This document shows positions 1,443-33,477 of a DNA stretch of 50,728 nucleotides, one piece after another (within the stretch, counting starts at the first letter, position 1; each line of letters begins with the position of its first letter). The stretch covers positions 1 to 50,728 of the forward strand of contig JAOLYB010000006.1 of NCBI GenBank assembly GCA_028343215.1, read 5' to 3'. The position numbers and the translations under genes were made by a program. The stretch comes from Candidatus Nitrosopelagicus sp. GTDB lineage: Archaea; Thermoproteota; Nitrososphaeria; Nitrososphaerales; Nitrosopumilaceae. The notes under the pieces were generated by a model. The model had not been told where the DNA came from and ran no database searches. It saw only the letters and a list, made by a program, of their open reading frames with translations.

Positions 1443-2585
1443 TTGAAAATTTGTAAAAATTGTATTCAACCTAATACACGTCCTGGTATATTTTTTGATG
1501 AAAATGGAGTTTGTGGTGCTTGTTTATGGTATCAAGAAAAAAATAAAATTAACTGGTCTGCACGTGAAGAAGAATTACATAAAATTGCTAAATGGGCAAA
1601 AGAAAATACAAAAAGCAACTATGATTGTGTGATTGGAGTAAGTGGGGGGAAAGACAGTACTAAACAAGCAATCACTGCAAGAGATAAACTCGGTTTACAT
1701 TGTCTTTTAGTAAACTTTCAACCTGAAGGAATTACAGAAATAGGTTCAAAAAATATTGAAAATTTAAAAAATCAAGGTTTTGATGTCATATCTGTTAGAC
1801 CAAATCCTAAAATAATGAAATTACTAATTAAGCATGATTTTTTCAAATGGCTTAATCCTGTTAAAGCGACAGAGTTTGCATTGTGGTCATCAACATACAT
1901 TATTTGTGATTCTTTTAATATTCCATTAATTATACAAGGGGAAAACCCTGGGTTAACATTGGGTGCTAGTCTAACAGGTGTAGGCACTGATTCAAACTGT
2001 CTAAATGCTGAAAAGTTGGAAACTCTATCTACCGGATGGAAAGATTATTTAGAAATTGATGGCGTTGAAGAAAAAGATCTTTTCTTACTTCATTATGATA
2101 GGAAGAGTTTAGAATCAAAAAATGTTAAAGGCATTTGGTTAAATTATTTTTTAAAAGAATGGTCAAATTTTGAATCTGCAAAATTTTCTGAGAAATTTGG
2201 TTTTGAATCCAGACCTCTAAATACTGATCCAAATTCAATAGGTACCTATGTCACTGAAGGTAGTAATCCTGGAACTTATTTCCAGCTAGATACTGATTTA
2301 ACGCAAGTAAATCAATTATTGAAATTTATTAAATTTGGTTTTGGTCAATGTATGGATCATGCATGTTATGATATTTTAGAAGGATTATTGAATAGAGAAG
2401 AAGCAATAGACTTAGTAAAAAAATATGATGGAAAATGTTCATCAGATTACATTGAAAAATTCTGCAATTACATTGGTATAACTACTGAAGAATTTTGGAC
2501 TACTGCTGAAAAGTTTAGAGGAAACATGTGGAAGAAAAATGATAACGGTGAGTGGAAAAATTCAGTTTGGGAACTTTTGAAGTAG
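1443..2585 (+). CDS. N-acetyl sugar amidotransferase (PseA/WbpG-like)
   Basis: A PP-loop ATP pyrophosphatase with the motif S-G-G-K-D-S at residues 67-72, preceded by a four-cysteine zinc-ribbon-like N-terminus (C4, C7, C24, C27). This arrangement and the 380-residue length match the N-acetyl sugar amidotransferase family, which converts a sugar carboxamide or acetamido group to an amidine using ammonia from glutamine, typically on nonulosonic acids or O-antigen sugars. The start is TTG at 1443, with a TATA-like box (tataaaa) near 1410, suggesting its own leaderless transcript. The exact sugar is not readable. The family call is firm. Confidence 0.85.
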   Translation: MKICKNCIQPNTRPGIFFDENGVCGACLWYQEKNKINWSAREEELHKIAKWAKENTKSNYDCVIGVSGGKDSTKQAITARDKLGLHCLLVNFQPEGITEIGSKNIENLKNQGFDVISVRPNPKIMKLLIKHDFFKWLNPVKATEFALWSSTYIICDSFNIPLIIQGENPGLTLGASLTGVGTDSNCLNAEKLETLSTGWKDYLEIDGVEEKDLFLLHYDRKSLESKNVKGIWLNYFLKEWSNFESAKFSEKFGFESRPLNTDPNSIGTYVTEGSNPGTYFQLDTDLTQVNQLLKFIKFGFGQCMDHACYDILEGLLNREEAIDLVKKYDGKCSSDYIEKFCNYIGITTEEFWTTAEKFRGNMWKKNDNGEWKNSVWELLK

Positions 2586-3838: not shown

Positions 3839-4873
3839 ATGACTCTTAAAACTGTGGAATGGAAAAATAATTCCGTTATTATGATTGATCAAACTAAATT
3901 ACCTACTGTTCTTGAATATGTCACTTATACTGATTTTAATCAGGTTGCAGACGCAATTAGAACATTAGTTGTTCGTGGTGCCCCTGCAATTGGTGTTTCT
4001 GGTGCATTTGGACTTGCACTAGCATCACTACAAAGTGATGCTACTGAAAAAAATGATTTGATTTCATATATGGAGAACGCAAAACAAATTTTATTTGAAA
4101 CAAGACCTACGGCAGTAAATCTAGCATGGGGATTAGATAAAATCATGGAAGTTGCAAATAATGCAACTAATGCTGATGAATTAAGAATTAATGTTGTTGA
4201 GCATGCTAAAAAAATGGCCGAACAGGATATTCAAATTAATATGACAATGGGGAAAAATGGATCTGACTTATTTGACGATAATGATACTATTATGACACAT
4301 TGTAATGCAGGTGCACTTGCAACTGTTGGTTATGGAACCGCATTAGGTGTAATTCGTGCAACAAGGGACAGTGGAAAAAATATTAAAGTCATAGCTACTG
4401 AAACTCGTCCTATTCAACAAGGTTCAAGGTTAACTGCTTTTGAATTAAAACATGATGGAATTGATGTAAGTCTAATTCCTGATACGGCTGTTGGTTATTC
4501 TATGGCAAATGGTCTTGTAGACAAAATTGTTGTTGGTGCAGATAGAATTTTAAGAACTGGCCATGTTTATAATAAAATTGGAACATATCAGGTAGCAACC
4601 ATGGCAAACCAACACAACATTCCATTTTATGTTGCTGCTCCTATCTCAACATTTGATATGAAAAGTAATCCTGAAGATGTAGTAATTGAACAAAGAAAAG
4701 GATCTGAAGTCACTGGAATTGGTGACAAAAAAACTGCTCCTGATGACATCAATGTAATAAATCCTGCATTTGATATGACACCTCCTGAATTAATTACTGG
4801 AATAATTACCGAAAAAGGTGTTGCAAAAGCACCTTTTGAAGAATCCATCAAAAAATTATTCCAAGCTAATTAA
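3839..4873 (+). CDS. mtnA: S-methyl-5-thioribose-1-phosphate isomerase / eIF2B-like aldose isomerase
   Basis: A 344-residue member of the eIF2B/MtnA superfamily. Seen directly: R-G-A-P-A-I-G-V (46-53), T-R-P-T-A-V-N-L-A-W (88-97), the catalytic-Cys segment T-H-C-N-A-G-A with C155, and G-A-D-R-I with D235, the positions of the MtnA catalytic cysteine and aspartate. MtnA isomerises methylthioribose 1-phosphate to the ribulose form in methionine salvage. Archaeal relatives can instead act on ribose 1,5-bisphosphate in nucleotide salvage. The sequence looks closer to MtnA, but no other salvage gene is in the window, so the substrate stays open. Confidence 0.85.
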   Translation: MTLKTVEWKNNSVIMIDQTKLPTVLEYVTYTDFNQVADAIRTLVVRGAPAIGVSGAFGLALASLQSDATEKNDLISYMENAKQILFETRPTAVNLAWGLDKIMEVANNATNADELRINVVEHAKKMAEQDIQINMTMGKNGSDLFDDNDTIMTHCNAGALATVGYGTALGVIRATRDSGKNIKVIATETRPIQQGSRLTAFELKHDGIDVSLIPDTAVGYSMANGLVDKIVVGADRILRTGHVYNKIGTYQVATMANQHNIPFYVAAPISTFDMKSNPEDVVIEQRKGSEVTGIGDKKTAPDDINVINPAFDMTPPELITGIITEKGVAKAPFEESIKKLFQAN

Positions 4874-4909
4874 TAGAAAGTTTTTATTCATTTCATGTTA
4901 CTTTTTCTC

Positions 4910-5551
4910 ATGAGTGCCGTTAATGTAGAACATGTACGTGATTCACTGAAAAAATGTATGGATCCTGAAGTCCCATTAAGTATTGTAGATATGGGTTTGA
5001 TTTATGGAATTGACGTAACCGCAAATAATGATGTAAATATCAAAATGACTATGACAACTAAAGGTTGTCCATTACATGAAACAATGGTTGATGATGTTAA
5101 AAGATATGCAAAAAAAGTTTCTGGTGTAAACAACGTTGACGTAGAAATTGTTTGGGATCCTCCATGGACTATGGATAAAATGTCAGATGAAGCAAAGGCC
5201 ATGATGAAAACAATGGGATCTCAAAATACCCCTGCTCCAATCAACTATGAAACTGCTGTGCCACAAGGTGTTGGAAAGTTAGTCAAACAGGAAGATGGCT
5301 CTCTAGTTCTTGCAAATGAACATGAACAAGGATTTATGGTAAATCAAGCAATCATAGATTTTTGGAAATCATGTAATGGACAAAGAAAAGTTACAGAGTT
5401 GGTAGATCTATTTGCTCAACAAACTGGATTACAAAGAACACAAGTTGAAAAAGAAGTAATGCAATTATTAAAACAACTTCATGAAGGTGGACTATTAGTT
5501 ATTCCAAACCAAAATGATGCTCCAAATGTTGAATTCAAAAAATCAAACTAA
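4910..5551 (+). CDS. MIP18/SufT-like (DUF59) protein with C-terminal PqqD-like winged helix
   Basis: N-terminal DUF59/MIP18 domain: D-P-E-V-P-L-S-I-V-D-M-G-L-I-Y and the conserved cysteine in T-T-K-G-C-P-L, as in SufT/PaaD-like Fe-S assembly factors. The C-terminal third (about residues 140-210) reads like a PqqD/peptide-recognition winged helix: an N-Q-A-I-I-D-F-W core, then D-L-F-A-Q-Q-T-G and a final L-L-K-Q-L-H-E-G-G-L-L. Start chosen at ATG 4910 rather than ATG 4895 because a tttttatt box lies about 26 bases upstream, which fits a leaderless transcript. Likely role: metal-cluster maturation, possibly presenting a peptide client. Confidence 0.8.
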   Translation: MSAVNVEHVRDSLKKCMDPEVPLSIVDMGLIYGIDVTANNDVNIKMTMTTKGCPLHETMVDDVKRYAKKVSGVNNVDVEIVWDPPWTMDKMSDEAKAMMKTMGSQNTPAPINYETAVPQGVGKLVKQEDGSLVLANEHEQGFMVNQAIIDFWKSCNGQRKVTELVDLFAQQTGLQRTQVEKEVMQLLKQLHEGGLLVIPNQNDAPNVEFKKSN

Positions 5552-29486: not shown

Positions 29487-29870
29487 TTATAATGTCACTA
29501 ACTTTACGGTATCCATTTTTTTGTTAGTCTGAAAATCTTTTGTTATATCCGTAACCAAGTTTGCTTCTCCTTTTAACATGAAAAGTTCCATGCATTTGTC
29601 ACCTTCAATCTTACTGTGTAAATGTGTCGTGATGAGGTCTTCGTAGGAATGTTTGATTCCGGTTACCTGATTGTCATATTCGTCATTATGGACAACTAAC
29701 AAAATGGCGTTGACATTTCCTGAAAGATCTTCTTTTTGTTTTTCTTCTGAAACAAAGCTTCGAATTCCTGCTCTAATTGCATCTGACCTACCTGAAAATC
29801 CAAGACTCTTTTGCAAATTATCAATCTGTTTTAGAATCTCATCATTTAATGAAATGGAGACAATTGGCAT
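29487..29870 (-). CDS. NikR-like ribbon-helix-helix metal regulator
   Basis: The N-terminus V-S-I-S-L-N-D-E-I-L-K-Q-I-D-N-L ... S-R-S-D-A-I-R-A-G-I is a CopG/NikR ribbon-helix-helix DNA-binding domain, and the rest is ACT-like with H-S-Y-E-D-L-I-T-T-H-L-H-S-K-I-E-G-D-K-C (counting from ATG 29894: H82, H91, H93, C101), similar to the square-planar NikR nickel site but with changed spacing. Start chosen at ATG 29870 (M-P-I-V-S-I-S). It is divergent from a metal ABC import operon, the most likely target. Metal identity is not certain. Confidence 0.85.
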   Translation of the reverse strand: MPIVSISLNDEILKQIDNLQKSLGFSGRSDAIRAGIRSFVSEEKQKEDLSGNVNAILLVVHNDEYDNQVTGIKHSYEDLITTHLHSKIEGDKCMELFMLKGEANLVTDITKDFQTNKKMDTVKLVTL

Positions 29871-29902
29871 ATGCTCGTTGTTATTAAGAAACATAAAAAT
29901 AT

Positions 29903-29915
29903 TAACAAATTGTTA
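29903..29915. promoter_or_regulatory. Perfect 13-bp dyad between the regulator and import operon
   Basis: taacaa-a-ttgtta is a perfect inverted repeat with a one-base centre. It sits 33-45 bases upstream of the regulator start and about 50 bases before the probable import-operon transcript start. Flanking attaac copies occur at 29901 and 29915. A ribbon-helix-helix or other dimeric regulator site is plausible. Confidence 0.45.
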
Positions 29916-29930
29916 TTAACTTTTTACACA

Positions 29931-29940
29931 TTTATTAATA
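29931..29940 (+). promoter_or_regulatory. TATA-like box of the metal import operon
   Basis: tttattaata lies about 22-30 bases before the GGG that begins the folded leader, placing the transcript start near 29960-29962. Confidence 0.45.
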
Positions 29941-29961
29941 AGATTTTTTGCTTTATTTTAT

Positions 29962-30035
29962 GGGAAACAGGGTAAGTCTGCACGAAAGCAACCGCATGCT
30001 TCAGTCGTACATTCAATCTTGCCTTGTTTTCACCC
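29962..30035 (+). ncRNA. Structured 5' leader of the metal import operon, candidate regulatory RNA
   Basis: A GC-rich island (about 49% G+C by hand count over 29961-30040). Outer helix: 29965-29976 (aaacagggtaag) with 30018-30029 (cttgccttgttt), 12 pairs including two G-T; ggg 29962-29964 may add to ccc 30033-30035. Middle helix: tgcacga (29979-29985) with tcgtaca (30005-30011), one mismatch. Inner hairpin: aagca/tgctt around a six-base accgca loop, with a three-base bulge cag. It ends 14 bases before the substrate-binding protein start. Not a riboswitch class I recognise. Confidence 0.55.
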
Positions 30036-30048
30036 GGGTTGATTATCT

Positions 30049-31446
30049 ATGAATAAGAATTCATCAATTGCTATCGTAGCTGGTGTTGCTATTGCAATAG
30101 CTGTAATTGGGTCTGTTTTTGCGTTTAGTGGAATTTCAAATGACTCCGCACCTATGGATACACCTGTAACTGCACCACAAGAAGAAAAAATATCTATCAT
30201 TACATCATTTTATCCATACCATGAGTTTACAAAAAATGTAGCCGGTGACTTTGCTGATGTTAAACAATTTATGCCATCTGGAGTTGAAGCTCATGATTGG
30301 GAACCACGAGCCCAAGAGATTCAGTCTTTGAAAGATGCTGACGTTTTTGTATACAATGGATTAGGAATGGAACCTTATCTTGAAAATATAATTGAATCAG
30401 GAGAGTTTGACAATATTTTATTTGTTAAAGCGTCTGACGGCGTTGAACTATTAAAATTTGAAGATGACCATGATGATCACGATGAACATGCAAAAGATGA
30501 TGACCATGATGATCACGATGAACATGCAAAAGATGATGACCATGATGATCACGATGAACATGCAAAAGATGATGACCATGATGATTCTCATGCTGAAGAA
30601 TTCCATGAAGAAATTGCACTAGTAATTGAAGAATTTGAAGAAGGACATATGACTGAATCACAATCTATTGAAGCTATAGAAGAAATACTTCATGAACATG
30701 AAGGTGACGGACATGAACATGGAGCACGTATAATTGAAGACATTGAGCATGTGTTACATGAAATTGAAGATGGTCACATTACAGGTCCAGAAGGTTTAGA
30801 AGAAATTCACCACTTAGTTTCTGGTGAAGATGTACATGACGAACATGCAAAAGATGATGACCATGATGATCACGATGAACATGAAGAAGGAGGACACGAT
30901 GGACATGATCATGATTATGAATTTGATCCACACATTTGGTTAGATCCAATTTTAGTAAAACAACAAGTTAATGTTATCCGCGATGGATTGATTCAAGCAG
31001 ATCCTGAAAACAAAGAGCACTATGAAGAGAATGCTCGTATTTACAATAATAAAATGGATGCATTAGATATGAAAATAGGCACTGCTTTATCCTCATGTCA
31101 GAAAGACACAATTGTTCCATATCATAATGCGTTTACCTATCTTGGAGAAAGATATGACATACATATTATATCTCTAGGTGGAATGGCACCTGATGCAGAA
31201 GCCTCAGCTGCTGAAATTGCTGAATTTGTAGATTTTGTTAAGGATAATGACATCAAGGTAATCTTTTCAGAAGACTTAGTTGATCCAAGACTTGCAGAGG
31301 TAATTGCTGATGAAGCAAATGCTCAAGTCATGTTATTCAGCCCACTTGAAGCATTGAGTCAAGAAGAGGCAAGATCAAACGTATCTTACATCGATAAGAT
31401 GGAAGAAAATCTCGACTCTCTAAAGGTGGCTCTTGAATGTCAATAA
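30049..31446 (+). CDS. znuA: Zinc/manganese-type ABC substrate-binding lipoprotein-like protein, His-rich
   Basis: A cluster A-I binding protein of 465 residues. An N-terminal hydrophobic segment anchors or exports it; H58 and H82 (G-V-E-A-H-D-W-E-P) and the D-P-H-I-W-L-D-P motif hold the metal. A His/Asp/Glu-rich insert (about 140-300) carries three copies of a 12-residue unit ending D-E-H-A-K, a fourth in variant form, and an extra E/H helix region. The final residues are L-E-C-Q. It begins immediately after the folded leader and overlaps the next small gene by ten bases. Zinc is likely, nickel or manganese possible. Confidence 0.9.
   Translation: MNKNSSIAIVAGVAIAIAVIGSVFAFSGISNDSAPMDTPVTAPQEEKISIITSFYPYHEFTKNVAGDFADVKQFMPSGVEAHDWEPRAQEIQSLKDADVFVYNGLGMEPYLENIIESGEFDNILFVKASDGVELLKFEDDHDDHDEHAKDDDHDDHDEHAKDDDHDDHDEHAKDDDHDDSHAEEFHEEIALVIEEFEEGHMTESQSIEAIEEILHEHEGDGHEHGARIIEDIEHVLHEIEDGHITGPEGLEEIHHLVSGEDVHDEHAKDDDHDDHDEHEEGGHDGHDHDYEFDPHIWLDPILVKQQVNVIRDGLIQADPENKEHYEENARIYNNKMDALDMKIGTALSSCQKDTIVPYHNAFTYLGERYDIHIISLGGMAPDAEASAAEIAEFVDFVKDNDIKVIFSEDLVDPRLAEVIADEANAQVMLFSPLEALSQEEARSNVSYIDKMEENLDSLKVALECQ
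30463..30582 (+). repeat. In-frame 36-base tandem repeats in the znuA-like gene
   Basis: Three near-perfect copies (the first three bases shorter) and a partial fourth, each coding for D-D-D-H-D-D-H-D-E-H-A-K. A further related copy is at 30832-30885. Near-identity at DNA level suggests recent expansion by slippage or unequal recombination. Confidence 0.9.
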
Positions 31447-31655
31447 AACAATGTAAGACTGACCCTTCAAGTACTAAAGAAAGTGCTGATGCAGGAGTAA
31501 ATGAGATTCAAATTGAAATAAATGATTCATCTTCAAGTCATAACAATAATTTTGCAATCTCACTAAAGTCAAAAAATGTAGATGTTGATAAACTACTTCC
31601 TATGGCAAAACAGTGGATAAAGGAACATAAAGAAAAGGCCTGGCAAGGCGTCTGA
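31437..31655 (+). CDS. Small soluble protein inside the metal import operon
   Basis: A 72-residue protein from ATG 31437, overlapping the substrate-binding gene by ten bases. Composition is Ser/Asn-rich in the middle (S-S-S-S-H-N-N-N) with a basic C-terminal helix ending W-I-K-E-H-K-E-K-A-W. One cysteine (C6) near the N-terminus. No family recognised. Overlap and strand say it is translated with the operon. Confidence 0.65.
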   Translation: MSIKQCKTDPSSTKESADAGVNEIQIEINDSSSSHNNNFAISLKSKNVDVDKLLPMAKQWIKEHKEKAWQGV

Positions 31656-31659
31656 CCAT

Positions 31660-31809
31660 ATGGTTATAATGGTTGATAATTCTCAAGTAATGCAAATGTT
31701 AGTAGATAAAATTGAAGAGATAGAAATAAGACTTCATAATTTAGAAAAATTTGCAATTAATTATGGTAATAATACCTGGCACTCTAAAGGTGATACTGAA
31801 TGTCAGTAA
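31660..31809 (+). CDS. 49-residue protein upstream of the ATPase gene
   Basis: Found in the gap between the 72-residue gene and the ABC ATPase. From ATG 31660 (or ATG 31669) it encodes a coiled-coil-like helix (M-Q-M-L-V-D-K-I-E-E-I-E-I-R-L-H-N-L-E-K) and ends G-D-T-E-C-Q, overlapping the ATPase start by ten bases, just as znuA ends L-E-C-Q over the previous junction. Function unknown; translational coupling with the ATPase is likely. Confidence 0.6.
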   Translation: MVIMVDNSQVMQMLVDKIEEIEIRLHNLEKFAINYGNNTWHSKGDTECQ

Positions 31810-32606
31810 CTAATGTACTTGATGTAAAAGATCTTACAGTAAATTATGATAATCTTCCTGCAGTGGATAACATCAGTTTTGATGTAAAACAAGGTGATTG
31901 TTTAGGAATTATTGGACCTAATGGTGCTGGCAAGACTACATTATTCAGAGCAATCTTAGGATTACAACCATATTCTGGCAACATCAAATTATTTGGATAT
32001 GAAGATTCAAAGTATGATTCAATTGTTCCACTAATTGGTTATGTACCACAAAAAGTAACATTCGAACCAAATTTCCCTGCAACTGTTTATGATGTTGTCT
32101 CAATGGGATTAATTTCTGACAAACGTATAGTACAGGGAGTAAAACTAATTCAACAATGTGATTGTTGCTGGAACAGAATATACCAATCAATAGAAAAGAA
32201 CGATGATAAAATAACTCAAGCTCTACATACTGTAGGATTAGAATCTCTCAGGAATAGAAGAATCGGTGAACTTTCAGGAGGAGAATTGCAACGTGTCTTC
32301 ATTGCAAAAGCCTTAGTAAAAGATCCTTTGTTGTTGATTCTAGACGAACCTGTTGCTAGTGTTGACGTTGAATCACAAACAAAATTCTATAATGTAATTA
32401 AAACAATCAATGAACAAAATAACATAACTGTAATCTGGTCTTCACACGACCTCGATGCAATTTCAAAATATGCAAACAGAGTTGCATGCATGAACAAGAA
32501 AATCTTTTTCCATGGAGAAAAAGAAAAATTCTTTTCAGACAAAGAACTTCTTAAAATGTACACTGAATCATCAATGCAAATGCACATGCATGATCATGAG
32601 CATTAA
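31800..32606 (+). CDS. znuC: Metal ABC transporter ATP-binding protein
   Basis: Walker A G-P-N-G-A-G-K-T at 39-46, Q-loop V-P-Q-K (82-85), signature L-S-G-G-E at 158-162 and Walker B L-L-I-L-D-E-P (178-184). Two unusual features: a cysteine cluster C120-D-C122-C123 in the helical domain and a His-rich C-terminus M-Q-M-H-M-H-D-H-E-H, both plausible metal-sensing or -storage sites. It powers the permease encoded 16 bases downstream. Confidence 0.93.
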   Translation: MSVTNVLDVKDLTVNYDNLPAVDNISFDVKQGDCLGIIGPNGAGKTTLFRAILGLQPYSGNIKLFGYEDSKYDSIVPLIGYVPQKVTFEPNFPATVYDVVSMGLISDKRIVQGVKLIQQCDCCWNRIYQSIEKNDDKITQALHTVGLESLRNRRIGELSGGELQRVFIAKALVKDPLLLILDEPVASVDVESQTKFYNVIKTINEQNNITVIWSSHDLDAISKYANRVACMNKKIFFHGEKEKFFSDKELLKMYTESSMQMHMHDHEH

Positions 32607-32622
32607 TGAATAGGATGAAAAA

Positions 32623-33477
32623 ATGATTCTCGAAGCTCTCTCTTATGGATTTATGCAAAAAGCACTGATTGCAGGTATTGCAGTTGGTTTGATTTGTTCA
32701 TTTATGGGAACCTTTCTAGTGCTACGACGTTATTCTTTATTTGGTGATGGGATTGCGCATGTTGCATTTGGCGGTATCTCGGTTGGTTTATTCTTAGGAG
32801 TTTTTCCATTATGGACCGCGTTTATCGTATCAATATTTGGTGGATTAGGACTCCAAAAATTAAGACAAAGTACCAAAATATCTGGTGATTCGGCAGTTGC
32901 TGTAGTCTTGGTTTCTGGACTAGCCGTAGGTGTGATTCTGGTGAGTTCTTCTGGTGGATTTTCAGTAGATCTCTTTAGCTTTTTGTTTGGAAGTATTCTT
33001 TTGATAAGTCAGGAAGATACTATAATGATTCTTGCTCTTAGTGCAGGAATCATTGCCACACTAACCATTATGCAAAAACAATTTCTTCATCTAACATTCA
33101 ACGAAGAACAAGCTAAACTTGCAGGTATGAGAACAACTTTGTTAAACTATGCTTTTGTTGTTCTTGCATCTATTACAGTTGTAACTTCTATGAGGCTAGT
33201 TGGAATACTGTTAATCTCTGCACTTATCGTGATTCCAAATATTACCGCAATGCAGTTTGGTAAGGGATTTAAAAAAACAGTTTTCATATCAATGAGTATT
33301 TCAGTTATCTCTGTAGTTAGTGGAATACTTCTATCTTATTCACTCAACGTTGCACCATCAGGAACTATAGTTGTTATAGCAGTTGGAATTCTAATAGGTA
33401 CTCTTCTTTTAAAATCTACAGGCATACTGGGAAAAATTGACATTAAGAATCCATCAAAATTAACACATAACAGCTAG
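32623..33477 (+). CDS. znuB: Metal ABC transporter permease
   Basis: A 284-residue polytopic protein of the ABC-3 family: F-L-V-L-R-R-Y-S-L-F-G-D-G-I-A-H-V-A-F near the start, several hydrophobic segments, and M-R-L-V-G-I-L-L-I-S-A-L-I-V-I-P in the middle, the hallmark of ZnuB/MntB-type permeases. It forms the channel with the ATPase and the His-rich binding protein. Followed by the TPR gene after 12 bases. Confidence 0.93.
   Translation: MILEALSYGFMQKALIAGIAVGLICSFMGTFLVLRRYSLFGDGIAHVAFGGISVGLFLGVFPLWTAFIVSIFGGLGLQKLRQSTKISGDSAVAVVLVSGLAVGVILVSSSGGFSVDLFSFLFGSILLISQEDTIMILALSAGIIATLTIMQKQFLHLTFNEEQAKLAGMRTTLLNYAFVVLASITVVTSMRLVGILLISALIVIPNITAMQFGKGFKKTVFISMSISVISVVSGILLSYSLNVAPSGTIVVIAVGILIGTLLLKSTGILGKIDIKNPSKLTHNS

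Follow-up and report, generated by a model that had tools for sequence, protein, structure and literature searches.

The window analysed here is a 50,728-nucleotide stretch of DNA from Candidatus Nitrosopelagicus, an abundant open-ocean genus. To our knowledge, regulatory RNAs are almost undescribed in ammonia-oxidising archaea. Positions 29960-30048 of the window hold a leader that sits between a NikR-type operator with its TATA box and a znuA-type importer operon, with a NikR-like regulator encoded divergently on the other side (Table 1). Tandem His/Asp-rich repeats (DDHDDHDEHAK) lie within znuA at 30460-30620 and 30825-30905, and their number is apparently variable between near-identical genomes (465 aa in G000, 453 aa in G078). 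Between znuA and znuC (31437-31809, plus strand) are two small ORFs of 72 and 49 aa, the first of which has no Pfam or NCBIfam match.

Table 1. Features at the nikR-znu locus (positions in the window; P1, outer stem of the leader).
Feature	Position	Strand	Evidence
NikR-like regulator (ribbon-helix-helix + NikR_C), divergent from importer operon	29487..29894	-	Pfam PF08753 8e-14, PF01402
Likely NikR-type operator GTTATTAA-N15-TTAATAA; shares bases with the leader's TATA box	29912..29941	.	exact-pattern matches among congeners
TATA-box-like TTTATTAATAA	29931..29941	+	gene start 28-30 bases downstream in leader-lacking congeners and second locus
ATG at the predicted +1; candidate leaderless start of 30-codon ORF (29960-30052)	29960..29962	+	+29 from TATA
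Outer stem P1, 5' strand	29962..29976	+	fold; pair counts over 10 sequences
GUYUGY, conserved; 5' half of alternative inner hairpin	29976..29981	+	alignment; pair counts
CAACCRCAUGCUUC, conserved block (RCAUGC = 3' half of alternative inner hairpin)	29989..30002	+	alignment
Outer stem P1, 3' strand (CUURCC core, then U-rich)	30018..30035	+	fold; pair counts
Shine-Dalgarno-like GGGUUGAUUAUC before znuA	30036..30047	+	UGAUUAU invariance; 16S-tail duplex
ABC importer metal-binding protein, znuA type, with His-rich insert	30049..31446	+	Pfam ZnuA 4e-72
znuC-type ATPase	31800..32606	+	Pfam ABC_tran 4.5e-31
znuB-type permease	32623..33477	+	Pfam ABC-3 4e-67

The regulator has both domains expected of NikR, and its closest PDB match is E. 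coli NikR (1q5v, 5e-12); it scores below the NCBIfam NikR cut-offs. Of the four-ligand nickel site of E. coli NikR (H76, H87, H89, C95), three ligands (H, H and C) are kept, and the complete site is absent from the window's protein. A Lys replaces the fourth ligand, His89, within an HLHSK motif that stands in place of LHVH, and this Lys recurs in all family relatives that we read. Since the fourth ligand is a Lys and the NCBIfam scores fall short, it is uncertain which metal this regulator responds to; judging by these residues, the protein may sense a different one.

The operator over the TATA box is likely the site of this adjacent NikR-like protein. The TATA box lies in its right half, and the GTTATTAA-N15-TTAATAAC arrangement differs from the known E. 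coli NikR box. Of the 31 genomes of the genus, 24 contain one to three exact matches to the pattern, most of which fall between nikR and the znu genes or at a single second locus next to a feoB-like gene. The copy of operator and promoter at that second locus (G000:C1:51838-51867; L091 about 2339-2368, minus strand) has under its control a leaderless 80-aa ORF adjoining the feoB-like GTPase/transporter gene, an arrangement that recurs in several congeners. In three other cases, nikR and the leader with its importer operon lie ~4.4 kb apart (L094 in G064, L093 in G090 and L100 in G153); in G064 the stretch holds a feoB-like module, with copies of the promoter kept at both ends.

The geometry of this promoter bears directly on where the message begins. 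In 11 leader-lacking congeners and at the second locus, the gene starts 28-30 bases after the start of TTTATTAATA, the spacing of a leaderless message; each of the 11 leaders has an ATG at offset +29 from this box. Together, these two spacings predict that the transcript begins at about 29960 and includes the hairpin. From promoter geometry, the start very likely falls at about 29958-29961, with the whole hairpin within the message, in agreement with the initial annotation, which had placed the leader near the transcript start and had named a start after 30030 as grounds for abandoning it. A marine dRNA-seq study covers Thaumarchaeota contigs (PMC5069720).

The leader folds as had been proposed by inspection: the minimum-free-energy structure of the window sequence (ViennaRNA) contains the same helices in the same nesting. 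An outer helix of 12 pairs joins 29965-29976 (AAACAGGGUAAG) to 30018-30029 (CUUGCCUUGUUU), includes the two G-U pairs that had been pointed out (29970/30024 and 29973/30021), and is extended by three further pairs (29962-29964 with 30033-30035). Inside it lie a middle helix (UG.ACGA with UCGU.CA) and an inner hairpin (AAGCA/UGCUU, loop ACCGCA). Compared with shuffled sequences, the fold energy reaches z -2.3 for 29940-30070 (3/200 shuffles) and z -2.2 for the leader alone (p 0.02), and ten distinct leaders all fold below their own shuffles (z -0.9 to -3.1). Fold energy by itself is unremarkable; it is conservation that lifts the hairpin beyond chance.

By DNA search, 11 of the 31 genomes of the genus have the leader, in a single copy each and always between a nikR-type promoter and a znuA-type gene, with both position and sequence blocks conserved as in homologues of a structured 5' leader. 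A covariance model recovered the same 11 genomes, one copy apiece (E 1e-19 to 2e-27), with no further match in the genus at E below 0.009 and nothing convincing outside it among 250 family and 400 class genomes. Weak model matches in four genomes (24.8-30.4 bits), including a further site in congener G019, were without the core block or gap-filled; the two whose surrounding genes we examined, in L113 and L116, fell inside protein-coding ORFs, and we took all four as chance. DNA-pattern matches in Streptococcus, Eubacterium, Phycisphaerae and two IMG/VR contigs were not matched by the covariance model, and the one in the viral contig that we inspected lay inside an ORF. Phage records held no DNA resembling the leader, and on this ground, together with the single copy per genome, we rejected a mobile element. 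Rfam gave no match at the gathering threshold or at E up to 5, and our literature search turned up no description of this leader. The leader is evolutionarily conserved, previously uncatalogued and, in the collections searched, confined to part of one genus.

Within that genus its presence is patchy, requiring three changes on a NikR+GltX tree. Of the 20 congeners without the leader, some are incomplete genomes and at least five keep a znuA-type gene at the same promoter, so the leader is dispensable. These close relatives with and without the leader before the same kind of gene form a natural comparison. The downstream gene is of the window's znuA type in ten genomes; in G102, a different SBP (~47% identical) follows the leader (L092, about 3994-5220), and an SBP of this type stands at the same promoter without a leader in G036. 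The G102 SBP suggests that the promoter plus leader and the importer operon are swapped as modules. Urease does not track the leader, since G019, G084 and G153 carry the leader with no urease match, G084 and G153 being incomplete genomes.

Conservation of pairing is clearest in the outer stem, which is present in 10 of 10 distinct sequences and is 92% paired over them, as against 35-58% when the whole structure is slid along the alignment. An RNAalifold model of 17 pairs is kept at 93%, again versus 35-58% when slid. Compensatory changes are few (C-G/U-G/U-A and C-G/U-A): two-sided changes appear in the outer stem at alignment columns 12/76 and 17/71, the latter reading C-G, U-G and U-A across lineages yet broken in three. 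The covariation score was equalled by 4/500 shuffles. Because there are only about five independent lineages, covariation support for the outer stem is modest and lies below an R-scape-type requirement. The initial annotation had looked to conserved pairing and covariation among homologous leaders for its helices, and 82% of its 26 pairs are kept on the alignment. The outer stem bears out the first expectation and lends modest support to the second; the middle and inner helices are without covariation support and break uncompensated in half of the lineages. Breaks in several lineages fall at columns 13/75 and 14/74 of the stem and in the inner hairpin as first drawn. An alternative inner hairpin, GUYUGY with RCAUGC, is 94% paired and has one pair with a two-sided change.

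The two main types of leader, A and B, pair the 3' strand with different 5' registers. L007, L008, L009 and L011 allow a further perfect helix of 8-9 bp, between the 3' strand CUUGCCAU and AUGGCAAG at the very start of the leader (p 0.009-0.05 against shuffles). As the 3' strand can pair with this 5'-terminal segment too, the outer stem is found in every lineage but with its register slipped between types.

At the level of sequence, conserved blocks alternate with variable ones along the alignment. When L001, L003 or L004 is compared with L005 or L006, all of group A, none of the 73 core positions of the leader has changed, against 11-21% of those in the flanks (p 0.001 to 9e-7) and 17-21% (about 19%) of znuA four-fold sites between group A species. 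Recent exchange of the leader among species could account for part of this near-identity. Leaders of type A and type B are 28-39% different, so it is blocks rather than the whole leader that are conserved. Constraint of this strength opposes neutrality, and hence the notion that the leader is a non-functional insertion, for which patchy presence among congeners would speak. The same patchiness and the inverted repeat GGCAAG/CTTGCC would suit a DNA element such as a second operator, but some 45-55 bp separate the half-sites, whose spacing and register vary, and the G-U and compensatory pairs fit RNA. We regard a DNA element or a functionless insertion as very improbable.

A 30-codon frame runs from the ATG at 29960 to a TGA overlapping the ATG of znuA (30049), just as had been described, and raises the question of whether a peptide rather than an RNA is conserved. 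The frame is open in every leader and ends on the znuA start (ATGA or ATGANTAA), and its AUG is at a translatable position, the predicted +1, in 11 of 11. It might therefore be a leaderless small gene, a first cistron acting as leader peptide or through translational coupling, with the hairpin secondary; the Shine-Dalgarno sequence on znuA would be in keeping with this, as in overlapping gene pairs of archaea the distal cistron often has such a sequence while the first gene is leaderless (PMC7531240). Against a small gene, 27-50% of shuffles would leave the frame open by chance, and indels in L008, L009 and L010 (three of ten leaders) cause the core to be read in another frame. Substitutions between L001 and L007 are distributed 9/13/8 by codon position; 2 of the changed codons are synonymous and 18 non-synonymous, and group A has no synonymous change at all. 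Since indels shift the frame and substitutions are not biased to third positions, the peptide is not conserved. Neither the counts by codon position nor the shifts of frame reveal purifying selection on it, and we rejected a conserved peptide in the frame of the 5' AUG. Third-position bias in an alternative frame (p 0.004, three taxa) was a post hoc observation, made among many subsets of taxa, that fades to 0.044 with a fourth taxon and 0.34 over all; a start codon for that frame is missing from group A, L007 and L011. The preference of the initial annotation for RNA over peptide is thereby upheld, and we consider a small gene unlikely. The ATG at 29960 still deserves attention, as it coincides with the predicted +1 in every leader and could serve for leaderless initiation.

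The leader ends in a second potential entry point for ribosomes. The heptamer UGAUUAU is invariant across the 11 leaders, and the last 25 nt of the leaders form a duplex with the 16S tail GGAUCACCUCCU, taken from the genus' own 16S genes, of -6.6 to -11.0 kcal/mol, compared with -4.3 +/- 2.0 for shuffled sequences. By this predicted pairing, the 3' end is the Shine-Dalgarno sequence of znuA, which explains its conservation. A helix of UGCUUC..UC with GGAGUGA, which would sequester the Shine-Dalgarno sequence, looked conserved but was no stronger than in shuffled segments (p 0.27-0.93 for the UGCUUC block as switching partner). The window sequence contains no terminator-like stem, and neither form of expression platform, terminator or masking helix, was found in the leader.

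These results weigh on the idea, raised by the initial annotation, that the leader is a riboswitch sensing a metal or metabolite directly. Its location 5' of a metal importer, the conserved and unpaired-looking block inside the stem, and its retention before two different SBP types are all in line with such a role. On the other side, an Rfam match is absent even at a permissive threshold, an obvious switching partner and a terminator-like stem are missing, and metal control is already provided for by the NikR-like regulator and its likely operator. We therefore hold a direct sensor to be quite improbable.

In the model, every leader has its stem either over the 5' AUG or right beside it, beginning no more than 4 nt from the predicted 5' end. 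The AUG is inside the stem in L007-L011 (probability unpaired 0.02 or less); the stem starts directly after it in L001, L003, L005 and L006 and partly within it in L004, and the AUG of group A leaders is for the most part left unpaired. A stem at the extreme 5' end, an AUG that is paired in group B and L010, and a Shine-Dalgarno sequence provided downstream could also describe a passive hairpin that stabilises or insulates the mRNA, with no sensing, and is kept because its promoter would otherwise yield a leaderless message. Such a hairpin leaves the CAACCRCAUGCUUC block and the 73 invariant group A positions unexplained, and we think it distinctly unlikely.

We favour a lineage-specific, cis-acting structured 5' leader that would control translation of the znu-type importer under a NikR-type promoter, and assign this reading a probability of roughly 0.45. 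The leader probably tunes the protein output of znuA, a translational role that we infer from its architecture. In the mechanism that we propose, transcription would start at about 29960 from the promoter whose TATA box lies in the NikR-type operator, and the first ~76 nt would form the long hairpin, its stem starting at the AUG within 4 nt of the 5' end. This hairpin would govern the mode of ribosome entry. As the stem contains or abuts the 5'-terminal AUG, the folded hairpin should disfavour leaderless entry there, and znuA would be initiated from its own Shine-Dalgarno sequence. Were the hairpin melted, ribosomes could start at the 5' AUG, translate the 30 codons across the leader and terminate on the znuA start codon, leading to coupled initiation of znuA. 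The conserved CAACCRCAUGCUUC segment, for which pairing gives no full structural explanation, is from its conservation likely the best candidate for a contact site, at which a tuning factor (protein, ion or metabolite) might act. A stronger version, in which the 5'-end hairpin toggles between leaderless AUG initiation and Shine-Dalgarno-driven initiation of znuA in answer to a metal, metabolite or protein, strikes us as a long shot; if true, it would be a form of control specific to organisms with both modes of initiation. Other messages with this promoter look leaderless in Nitrosopelagicus.

Several known systems resemble parts of this arrangement. The metal riboswitches in Rfam (yybP-ykoY Mn2+, NiCo and M-box) are likewise structured leaders upstream of metal-related genes, but the znuA leader is archaeal and restricted to one genus, and it matches none of their covariance models. 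The L7Ae k-turn leader of archaeal l7ae mRNA, which acts on translation through a bound protein (PMC5539422), is also a structured archaeal 5' leader, before a different gene; by eye, the znuA leader shows no recognisable k-turn (facing G-A/A-G pairs). With the overlapping archaeal cistrons described previously (PMC7531240), it shares an AUG at the predicted +1, a stop over the next ATG and a Shine-Dalgarno sequence before the distal gene, whereas here it is the RNA that is conserved and not the peptide of the upstream frame. Finally, NikR-controlled metal uptake promoters have the same divergent NikR-like gene and a shared palindromic site over the promoter. That likeness is at the level of transcription and not of the leader, and a leader on a metal importer would add an RNA layer above the protein metal regulator.
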